Below, one piece after another: positions 22,838-26,737 of a stretch of 48,888 nucleotides of DNA (position 1 is the first letter of the stretch; every line of letters begins with the position of its first letter). The translations under genes were made by a program, and so were the position numbers. Origin of the DNA: a bacterium (GTDB taxonomy: Bacteria > Actinomycetota > Acidimicrobiia > Spongiisociales > JAENVV01); assembly GCA_024641305.1 (NCBI GenBank), contig JAHEDI010000003.1, positions 1-48,888 of the forward strand. The letters run 5' to 3'. Under the pieces are notes generated by a model. It was not told the DNA's origin, searched no databases, and worked only from the letters and a program-made list of their open reading frames with translations.

Positions 22838-23503
22838 CTACCCGGCCGGTTGGACGACGAGGTCGATAATGTGGGCTGCCGGGCGGAACACCTGCCGGCT
22901 GAGTGGAGACAGTTCGGAAACGGGATGCGCCACCGGCAGGATGGCCCGCCCGGCGGTCAAGGCGGCCTGCGCCGCACGGGCGCAGGCTACCGTTGTCCAC
23001 AGCCGTTGATTGTTGCGTGCGACGACTGGTAGCAATACGCACTCTGCGGTCTCGGCCGGCATCAGGGATACGGGCGCCACATACTCGAGAAGCCCTCTTC
23101 GAAACGCCCGGCTACTGGTGCGCAACTCGGGGCTGGCCGCCTCGGTTACGGCCTGCAACACGGCCCGAGTTCCGGATCCCAGCGACAGGATTCCGAGGCT
23201 CGAGAAGCGGGCCGCCTCATAGGCTAGGTCCATCGACCAACGCGGATCTTCGAGTCGCCCAATCATCGCGTGCAGGGCCGCGGCAGTTCGGCCGGCATTC
23301 AAATCCATCGCCGCTTCGGTGACCGCCAGGAGGAGGGCCTGGTCGGACCGCCGCTTCCGGAGTGCTTGCGCAGCGGCAACGCCAGCCTCTGCCCACGAGA
23401 CTTCAGTAAGTTCGAGTAATGCCTTGGCAGCCTTGATGGCTGCTGGGACTGGATCTGCCCATTCGTCGCGGGCTACGTCGTTGAGCGTCTCACCGGGAGT
23501 CAA
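22838..23503 (-). CDS. unknown helical protein, possibly a degenerate eIF2B-like domain
   Basis: The 221-residue product is rich in alanine and helices and has no signal peptide. I see a distant resemblance to the eIF2B fold: an N-terminal helical bundle, then GILSLGSGTRAVLQAV where the family has a THSxSST loop, and a final strand-helix-strand (VVARNNQRLW, AQAALTAGRAILPVAHP). None of the VGAD, NKxGT or catalytic cysteine residues is kept. The start TTG 23503 overlaps the OsmC stop as TTGA, a four-base coupling that supports it, so the gene belongs to the selenoprotein operon. The function is unknown. Confidence 0.6.
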   Translation of the reverse strand: MTPGETLNDVARDEWADPVPAAIKAAKALLELTEVSWAEAGVAAAQALRKRRSDQALLLAVTEAAMDLNAGRTAAALHAMIGRLEDPRWSMDLAYEAARFSSLGILSLGSGTRAVLQAVTEAASPELRTSSRAFRRGLLEYVAPVSLMPAETAECVLLPVVARNNQRLWTTVACARAAQAALTAGRAILPVAHPVSELSPLSRQVFRPAAHIIDLVVQPAG

Positions 23504-23970
23504 GGGGCTAATTGCAGTTCGGTCGTGATCTTGATGGAGTCGCGAATCGAGCGGGCCACCGGACAGAAATCGGCATGGAAGCCGTGGACTCTTTTCGCGG
23601 TGTCGCGTTGGTCGCCTTGTACGCCTTTGAGCATGTATGTGACATGGATACGTTTGATTATCAAGACTTTGCCCTCTTTTTCGACCTCGCCGGTCGTTTC
23701 AGAGATCAGGTGCCCGTGAGATGCGTTGATGCCGCGCGCCTCCAGCGCGCCCCCGAAGGTTCCCGTCAGTCAACCGCCGGCGGCGGCGATGACGTAGTCA
23801 ATCGTCGTGGCGTCCGGCGGGTATTCCTCAGGGTCGACACCGTAATGCTCGGCGATGGCTCCGTGCACTCCGAAGCTGATTGGCTCATCCAGGGACGGCA
23901 TCCATACTTTGCGAATCGGACCTCGAACCCGTTCGATCTTGACTTTTGAGGTGTAAGCAACGTCGCTCAT
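23500..23970 (-). CDS. OsmC family protein with an in-frame TGA at the catalytic Cys: probable selenoprotein
   Basis: The reading frame is 156 residues long with one internal TGA at codon 67 (23772-23770). Before it stands DYVIAAAGG and after it LTGTFGGALEARG; in OsmC-family peroxidases this position is the peroxidatic cysteine (GGCLTGTF). The second conserved cysteine, Cys136 in DFCPVARSI, is present, and the downstream codons keep the family's pattern (IIKRIHVTYML). I read TGA as selenocysteine. A hairpin with the geometry of a bacterial SECIS lies 20-36 bases downstream. OsmC proteins reduce organic hydroperoxides with the two thiols, and selenocysteine would raise reactivity. TAACGT (23978-23983) seven bases before ATG 23970 implies a leaderless mRNA. 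SelA, SelB and SelC are outside the window. Confidence 0.78.
23734..23750 (-). promoter_or_regulatory. candidate bacterial SECIS hairpin of the OsmC selenoprotein
   Basis: On the mRNA the arms GCGCGC (23750-23745) and GCGCGC (23739-23734) close a five-base loop UGGAG (23744-23740). The loop begins 26 bases after the UGA, within the 16-37 base window established for bacterial SECIS elements, and has a guanine at its second position, as the model requires. All six pairs are G-C. Confidence 0.6.
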
Positions 23971-24530: not shown

Positions 24531-25391
24531 TCAATATCCATACTGAGCGACAATCGATCCGTTGGTATCCAAAAGGAAGCCGGTATCGCCTGCGTTATCC
24601 CATACCGGAGTGTTGCTACACCAATGGAACTCGGGTGACCGATCCGACCCGCAGCCTGTATAGAGAACCAATGACTCTCCCGGGGCTATTCGAACTCCGG
24701 AACCGAACGTGTAGCGATGCACGGACGATTCGTCTCTTACGGTCCACTTGGACAGGTCGATAACGGTTGGGTGATTGGATTCGATGGTGACCCACTCACC
24801 ATTCAGATTCTCGTTGTCCCGTCCGATGGCGTCGGCGTTGATTCCAGTGATGGTCACCTCATAGCGCTCGGTTGACCCGCAGGCTGTCGAAGACCACATG
24901 CCGATCTCTTCTTCCTGGGCAATCTGTTCTGCCCTATCGAGTACCGCCTGCAACGTCGTGTTTGGCTCGTAACCTCTCGCCAGGGCAGCGCCCTGCCGGA
25001 TCAGTTCGGCATTCACGAAGACGTCACCCAACCACACGTACCCCAGAATGCGGCCGTATTGGTCGAATTCCTCGACATCTGTACCCACCAAAACGGGTTG
25101 GCCCCCGATCAAGTCGTCGAGCAATGCGCGAGCTTCCTGATCGAAGCATTCGCCTTTTTCGGGGGAGTTGATCCCGATCAGGCGTACCCGTTCCTCCTGG
25201 CCGTCAATCTCGACCCTGAAGGAATCACCATCCTGGACATACAGCACGGTGGCGGTTCTGGCATCGGCCGGCGCCGAGGGACTCTCGAACGTGGTGGCCT
25301 GCGGATTTTCCGAAGTAGCCGACGGTCGGGCCTGGGGGGATACGCACGCGCCGGCGATGGTGGCGGCGAGGAGGAATCCCGCCGCTCTCAC
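24531..25391 (-). CDS. secreted thermonuclease (SNase) lipoprotein with C-terminal lamin-tail domain
   Basis: The 286-residue protein starts with a lipoprotein signal (helix then IAGAC, Cys16). Residues of about 45-175 form a staphylococcal nuclease-like domain (VLYVQDGDSFRVEI, RVRLIGINSPEKGECF, DQYGRILGYVWLGDVFVNAELI). The rest forms a lamin-tail (LTD) beta domain (NLNGEWVTIESN, SKWTVRD, GESLVLYTGCGS). Such proteins degrade or bind extracellular DNA. The long frame begins inside the upstream gene; the start GTG 25391 overlaps that gene's stop as GTGA, and AAAGGG stands seven bases upstream. It is the last gene of the lapA-CoADR operon. Confidence 0.85.
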   Translation of the reverse strand: MRAAGFLLAATIAGACVSPQARPSATSENPQATTFESPSAPADARTATVLYVQDGDSFRVEIDGQEERVRLIGINSPEKGECFDQEARALLDDLIGGQPVLVGTDVEEFDQYGRILGYVWLGDVFVNAELIRQGAALARGYEPNTTLQAVLDRAEQIAQEEEIGMWSSTACGSTERYEVTITGINADAIGRDNENLNGEWVTIESNHPTVIDLSKWTVRDESSVHRYTFGSGVRIAPGESLVLYTGCGSDRSPEFHWCSNTPVWDNAGDTGFLLDTNGSIVAQYGY

Positions 25392-26737
25392 ATGGCCCTT
25401 TCGTAGGCGCGGCGGGCGGCGATCAGCACCGGATCCCAGGTCCCCGAGAAGGGCGGCGCATATGAGAGGTCCATCATCGAGAAGGCGAGGCCATCCATTT
25501 CGTTCCATATCCCGGTTGCGAAGGTGTCGATACGTTTGCCGGCCGACCGGCCACCGACGATCTGCGCTCCAAGCAGCCGACCAGTCCGTCGTTCAGCAGT
25601 GACCTTGAGGGTCATGTTGGTTGACTCCGGCCAGTATCCGGCCATGGTGGTGGATTCAGTGATGGCGGTGACCGCTTCGATTCCGGCACTGTCGGCCTCC
25701 GCCTGGCTCAATCCAGTGCGGGCGATTTCGATGTCGAGAACTTTCGTGATAGCCGTTCCGAGGATTCCAGGGAACGTGGCGTCGTCTCCACCAATGTTGA
25801 TGCCGGCGACCCGTCCTTGTTTGTTCGCAACCGTTCCCAGGTGGACGTTGGCGGGTCGGCCGGTGATTCGATGGAGGGCTTCGGCACAGTCGCCCGCTGA
25901 CCAGATACCTTCAACGGACGTACGTTGTCGGTTGTCCACCGCCACCGCTCCGGTCGGGCCGATCCGAATGCCTGCCTCGGCTGCGAGTTCGGACACCGGT
26001 CTCGTTCCAAGCGCCAGGATGACGATGTCGGCCTCGAGGACGCCACCGTCGAGTTGAATTCCCCGGACGTGACCCTGCTCGTCTGCCAGACAGTTGACCC
26101 GGTGACCGGGTCGGACCGCTATACCTCGTTCCCGCATGCCTGCGGTTACGATCGCTCCCAGATCTTCATCGATTGATCGGTTCATCACGACCGCCCCCGA
26201 CGTGACCAATGTGGTGGTGATCCCGCGCACATGAAACGCTTCTGCCATTTCCAAACCGATATACCCGCCCCCGACCACGACGGCGTTCTTGGCATGGGCG
26301 GCGGCCGCCTTGATTGCCTCTGCGTCGTCGAGGGTCTTGAGATGAAACACACCGGTCAGGTCGATGCCTTCGATTGGTGGCCGAACTGGTCTGGCGCCCG
26401 TGGCATAAACGAGCTGGTCGAAGGGGACGACCCGGGACTCCCGACCATTCAGTACGGTGATCGTCCGGCTATCCGTGTCGATCTCAGTGACGGTGTTTCC
26501 AAGGTGGACGCTGATGCCTTGCTGGCTGAACTGGGCGGGGGTGCGAGCGATGAGCTGTTCTAGGTTGGGGACATCACCAGAGATGTAATACGGTTCGCCG
26601 CACGCCGAATAGCTCACCCGCTGAGTCATTTCGAATACGTCGATGATCAGGTCGTCTGAGCTTCGACGACGCCTGGCCTGAGACGCGGCTGACATGCCGG
26701 CGGCGTCGCCGCCGATCACCACGAGGCGTTCGGTCAC
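25388..26737 (-). CDS. CoA-disulfide reductase-type FAD oxidoreductase
   Basis: The 449-residue product has the FAD motif VIGGDAAG (7-14), the active-site cysteine Cys46 in SYSACGEPYY, an NAD motif VVVGGGYIG and the FAD segment GIWSAGDCAEA. The single-Cys SxxxCGxPYY pattern marks the CoA-disulfide reductase and NADH oxidase/persulfide reductase group. It would reduce CoA disulfide or persulfide with NAD(P)H. It overlaps lapA by four bases upstream and the secreted nuclease by four bases downstream, an odd combination with no obvious shared pathway. Confidence 0.86.
   Translation of the reverse strand: MTERLVVIGGDAAGMSAASQARRRRSSDDLIIDVFEMTQRVSYSACGEPYYISGDVPNLEQLIARTPAQFSQQGISVHLGNTVTEIDTDSRTITVLNGRESRVVPFDQLVYATGARPVRPPIEGIDLTGVFHLKTLDDAEAIKAAAAHAKNAVVVGGGYIGLEMAEAFHVRGITTTLVTSGAVVMNRSIDEDLGAIVTAGMRERGIAVRPGHRVNCLADEQGHVRGIQLDGGVLEADIVILALGTRPVSELAAEAGIRIGPTGAVAVDNRQRTSVEGIWSAGDCAEALHRITGRPANVHLGTVANKQGRVAGINIGGDDATFPGILGTAITKVLDIEIARTGLSQAEADSAGIEAVTAITESTTMAGYWPESTNMTLKVTAERRTGRLLGAQIVGGRSAGKRIDTFATGIWNEMDGLAFSMMDLSYAPPFSGTWDPVLIAARRAYERAM

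Follow-up and report, generated by a model that had tools for sequence, protein, structure and literature searches.

Does the TGA that interrupts an OsmC-domain gene in a genome of the class Acidimicrobiia specify selenocysteine (Sec), and what would the resulting protein do? The gene lies on the minus strand of the window analyzed here, a stretch of DNA of 48,888 nucleotides, at positions 23500–23970. It begins with the ATG at 23970, ends with the TGA at 23502–23500, and would encode 156 amino acids. The single stop within this frame is the TGA at codon 67 (23770–23772, minus strand). This codon occupies the proposed column of the peroxidatic Cys, where most homologues have TGA and some have Cys. 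Cys136 (23563–23565, minus strand), the proposed resolving Cys in an FCPVARS motif, is invariant in all 33 nonredundant homologues. Re-reading of the sequence gave the same frame, internal TGA, second Cys, and terminal TGA as the initial annotation, and the read-through product scored 44.5 bits against PF02566 (Pfam cut-off, 27.5). Judged from the sequence evidence presented below, the gene almost certainly encodes a selenoprotein with Sec at codon 67.

The TGA is the usual state among the relatives of this gene. The first 40 homologues whose sequence was read through codon 67 all have it. In Acidimicrobiia, an OsmC relative was found in 23 of 395 sampled genomes, and the 22 copies that are full-length or nearly so contain one stop only, the TGA at codon 67; the remaining relative is a fragment without this codon and was left out of the count. 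A scan of genome contigs yielded 18 relatives, all with TGA at codon 67 and with frames free of further stops, whose records name organisms from Acidimicrobiia, Desulfobacterales, Myxococcota, Acidobacteriota, Chloroflexota, KSB1, and Spirochaetota. In the actinobacterial phylum, a profile run against 396 genomes recovered about 40 copies with TGA, two of them divergent and with the motif U-M-M-G-T. In the Chloroflexota, the phylum of locus L053, 37 of 400 genomes had a relative, with a single TGA in nearly every case, and a divergent TGA type with U-M-Y-G-T also occurs there. The loci with these divergent motifs are L125 and L127 (genomes G435 and G565) and L156–L159. No relatives were found on the plasmids and viral contigs searched. 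Comparison of the homologues confirmed that coding is kept on either side of the TGA, and disruption elsewhere in the frames of close relatives, which would have pointed to a pseudogene, was looked for and not found. Genome G668 carries a decayed second copy (L129; contig C346, 2700–4500) with an additional TAA and a frame break, beside an intact copy on contig C51.

The Cys counterparts predicted for a Sec codon are also present. Copies of the actinobacterial family f74 have no stop, and seven of them (L119–L124 and L126) have TGC or TGT at the UGA column; among the Chloroflexota loci read, one copy (L154) has Cys there. These proteins are homologous to the UGA form over most of their length (36–45% identity to L046) and retain the second Cys, whereas they lack the UGA and have mostly lost the hairpin described below. 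Both U67 and C136 also align with Cys residues of paralogues in the same genome. Two copies have other residues at this column. In L128 (G694, contig C43), the Sec/Cys column is occupied by Asp and the second Cys column by Ser (HSPCARS), and this copy is perhaps a redox-dead paralogue; its genome has selA and another copy of the Cys type. In L153 (G1072, contig C49), from the Chloroflexota, TGG (Trp) is found instead of UGA and the hairpin is largely retained, which we read as a recent mutation or a sequencing error.

A SECIS-like hairpin, GCGCGC-UGGAG-GCGCGC, follows the UGA at +20 to +36 (23734–23750, minus strand). Its apical loop (UGGAG; 23740–23744, minus strand) contains UGG in most homologues and UCG or UGC in a few. 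The geometry is as described earlier, with the stem starting 20 bases past the UGA and the loop at +26. The region does not fold with unusual stability for its high GC content (z of about −0.7), and conservation was therefore used as the test of the hairpin; an Rfam scan of the region matched no family. In the 33 nonredundant homologues, codon 75 is always GCG, codon 76 always CTG, and codon 78 always GCG, despite the four to six synonymous codons available for Ala and Leu. Leu68 is CTG in all 32 of these homologues that have Leu at this position, and Chloroflexota copies read later use other Leu codons there. At comparable conserved sites outside codons 68–79, the third-position entropy averages 1.54 bits and is never below 0.95 bits, and the freeze in the hairpin codons differs from these sites with a Mann–Whitney P of 2 × 10−4. 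Because synonymous third positions are conserved, the hairpin is more than a chance pairing.

The hairpin also tracks the UGA. Among distinct downstream sequences, 61 of 65 with the UGA retain at least five pairs in either of two neighboring registers, versus one of eight without it; the Fisher P of 1.5 × 10−6 is only indicative because the sequences are related. Five actinobacterial sequences (L091, L093, L096, L098, and L100) show compensatory stem changes, from C–G to U–A at +21/+33, with a U–A pair at +24/+30 in L093. The four UGA exceptions are two U-M-M-G-T copies, the pseudogene L129, and L052, which retains four pairs. L125 and L127, when checked, did not keep the main-type hairpin, and the stem-loops that the U-M-M-G-T copies have of their own were seen by eye only. 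The frozen synonymous sites and the association with the UGA support the proposal of the initial annotation that this hairpin is a SECIS-like element, here one under purifying selection. That TGA67 arose as an artefact or by nonsense mutation of a Cys codon would suit the draft, metagenome-type character of the genomes and the existence of degraded copies such as L129 with its second stop and frame break, but the identical TGA in dozens of separate assemblies from several phyla, in frames otherwise intact, with conserved coding on both flanks and a frozen hairpin, refutes the reading as a sequencing error or pseudogene and leaves it a negligible probability.

The genome of the window contains the complete machinery for Sec incorporation. 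As the initial annotation had proposed to check, selA, selB, selD, and the tRNA-Sec (selC) were all found: the tRNA-Sec scored 76.3 bits and has the anticodon UCA, selA adjoins selB, and selD is also present. This selD (L018; G000, contig C60, 41802–42731) itself has an in-frame UGA (HGAG-U-ACKLS). The gene for the formate dehydrogenase alpha subunit (L084; contig C93, minus strand) has TGA at the usual Sec position (NRT-U-HAPSVAG), with a strong stem-loop 3′ of it. With the UGAs of OsmC, selD, and formate dehydrogenase, the genome has at least three selenoprotein genes. The distribution of selA agrees with that of the UGA. In Acidimicrobiia, where 256 of the 395 sampled genomes have selA, it was detected in 21 of the 23 OsmC carriers versus 235 of the 372 other genomes (P of 0.003). 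Among the genomes tested in the phylum, selA accompanies 21 of 22 UGA-form genomes versus one of five Cys-form f74 genomes (Fisher P of 0.001), and it was found in 16 of the 17 genomes behind the contig matches, three of these 17 being already counted in the Acidimicrobiia set. It was not detected in two UGA-form Acidimicrobiia genomes, both of which are 60–68% complete, in the UGA-form genome G640 of the phylum survey, or in one KSB1 genome.

These data also bear on the reading that UGA67 is read through or reassigned to another residue, as Trp or by a near-cognate tRNA. The TGG of L153, one step from TGA, counts in favor of this reading. Global reassignment of UGA is rejected because the OsmC gene itself terminates with UGA, as do many of its relatives. 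Moreover, the equivalent column holds Cys in homologues and in same-genome paralogues, the Sec machinery is complete, and the hairpin follows the UGA. Decoding as an amino acid other than Sec is thus very improbable, if marginally less so than an error or pseudogene. Taken together, the conservation of the UGA, its Cys equivalents, the conserved hairpin, and the Sec machinery uphold the initial assignment as a probable selenoprotein.

Similarity to solved OsmC and Ohr proteins is very weak in sequence: a single-sequence phmmer search of PDB sequences gave no match at an E value of 1, and a profile search reached a best E value of only 0.05. Since these searches were too weak, the fold was compared. 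A structure model built from 19 sequences (pLDDT 90) was used, and the best 33 matches of the fold search were all OsmC/Ohr entries (Z scores 14.9–8.8), including Ta0195 (Protein Data Bank [PDB] ID: 2onf; Z = 14.9), Escherichia coli OsmC (PDB ID: 1nye; Z = 13.0), and Pseudomonas aeruginosa Ohr (PDB ID: 1n2f; Z = 12.5). The predicted fold matches these three thiol peroxidases over the full length, with Z scores of 12–15 and rmsd values of 2–3 Å, whereas sequence identity is about 10–17%. In the model, U67 is located in the helix of residues 56–77, and the long helix that follows has Cys136 at its end. The peroxidatic Cys of Ohr/OsmC proteins is located in the central helix (PMC5962072), and their second Cys is near the C terminus, as here; the first Cys is replaced by Sec in the present protein as predicted. 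In the Ohr subfamily, catalytic Arg and Glu residues surround the peroxidatic Cys (PMC5962072). U67 and C136 align with the Cys residues of the solved members, in alignments that are weak. Based on this helix placement, Sec67 is suggested to be the attacking residue and Cys136 the resolving residue.

Here, we propose a mechanism for the synthesis and action of this protein. SelB and Sec-tRNA(UCA) would recode UGA67 as Sec, steered by the hairpin 20–36 bases downstream, and the product would fold as an OsmC-type subunit. The selenolate of Sec67 may then attack a peroxide or a related electrophile. In the next step, Cys136 would resolve the selenenic acid of Sec67 to form an Se–S bond, and a dithiol, either a small molecule or a protein, would finally reduce this bond. 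Because similarity to the solved OsmC/Ohr proteins is very weak, the peroxidase chemistry is drawn by analogy. On this basis, peroxidase-type activity is somewhat favored, and the best reading of the protein is a Sec-dependent OsmC/Ohr-like peroxidase or a related reductase.

The alternative that survives best is a selenoprotein that does not reduce hydroperoxides, for example, a reductase or transferase acting on other oxidized or reactive sulfur or selenium species, comparable to superfamily members such as the YhfA type, whose activity is not known. The protein scored far under the curated cut-offs of the two NCBIfam peroxiredoxin subfamilies, with 15.4 bits for TIGR03562 (OsmC; cut-off, 85.8) and 14.3 bits for TIGR03563 (SACOL1771; cut-off, 166.15). 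The distinct conserved motif FGVHSEIAEHYGV also points this way, and the OsmC superfamily includes members of unknown activity (PMC5962072). On the other hand, Sec67 and Cys136 are arranged as in OsmC/Ohr peroxidases, and the predicted fold matches those enzymes over its full length. We regard a nonperoxidase function as a real but minority possibility beside the peroxidase-type activity. The gene neighborhood does not help in this respect: across 33 loci, no neighbor is conserved that would point to a reductant or substrate, and the operon context therefore yields no reductant. The recurrent items near these loci are antisense ghosts and fragments of the OsmC gene itself, and one unrelated gene cluster recurs in four of the 33. 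A pyridine nucleotide–disulphide oxidoreductase is encoded upstream on the same strand in the window (25388–26737), and nothing similar is found at the other loci. Elsewhere on the minus strand of the window, at 24531–25508, is a protein that combines a staphylococcal-nuclease domain with a lamin-tail domain.

Lists of selenoproteins have included OsmC-like members, with the motif UxxT, since 2005 (PMC1088965, PMC2398784, PMC9312934, and PMC13188914), under COG1765 in one of these reports (PMC9312934). Like the present protein, the family from the Sargasso Sea and GOS data belongs to PF02566, has Sec at a redox site, and has a bacterial SECIS element after the UGA. Its published records include AACY01145085, MBR72571.1, and MCS5647933.1. 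It differs in motif, UxxT versus U-L-T-G-T or U-L-L-G-T here, as far as the published motif alone allows comparison; in the U-L-T-G-T of the window protein, T is at +2 and +4 and G at +3. It also differs in source: the earlier family is known from metagenome fragments, whereas the present genes come from genomes containing Sec machinery. The use of Sec in Actinobacteria was already known (PMC1794560), and a search of the open-licence literature for selenoproteins in Acidimicrobiia found nothing relevant. The initial annotation was correct in citing OsmC-like selenoproteins from marine metagenomes (PMC1088965), but its description of them as rare in actinobacteria is misleading, given selA in 256 and the OsmC gene in 23 of the 395 Acidimicrobiia genomes. 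The Acidimicrobiia gene is thus very likely a real and well-supported genomic example of a kind of selenoprotein already published. Across the genomes sampled, the gene and its relatives are widely distributed, with Sec as their usual predicted state.

In a quick tree of 71 sequences, which is unrooted as to the direction of change between Sec and Cys, the sequences of the main UGA type, 61 in all and from several phyla, group in a single clade (SH-aLRT 92). The f74 copies fall outside this clade, and the divergent f85 UGA pair lies beyond them. The tree needs only two state changes, and the Cys copies lie between two UGA types, a position that would fit replacement of Sec by Cys in f74. Desulfobacterales, Chloroflexota, and Spirochaetota are intermixed in one part of the tree, which suggests interphylum transfer with modest tree support. 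By these sequence assignments, the UGA-type OsmC is also present in at least six bacterial phyla other than Actinomycetota. As a tentative extension, these proteins might constitute a distinct OsmC subfamily (U-x-x-G-T, the FGVHSEIAEHYGV motif, and FCPVARS) in which Sec is usual in at least seven phyla and Cys replaces it where the machinery is lost. Its chemistry might be ill served by sulfur and possibly differ from classical hydroperoxide reduction.

For the family, the present analysis anchors in genomes with Sec machinery a selenoprotein family previously listed mainly from a few ocean metagenome sequences. It also provides a clean case in which exchange between Sec and Cys goes along with whether selA and the SECIS hairpin are present. 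If every UGA were annotated as a stop, such genes would be truncated at the active site. The protein is a small, testable enzyme for what selenium may contribute to OsmC chemistry.
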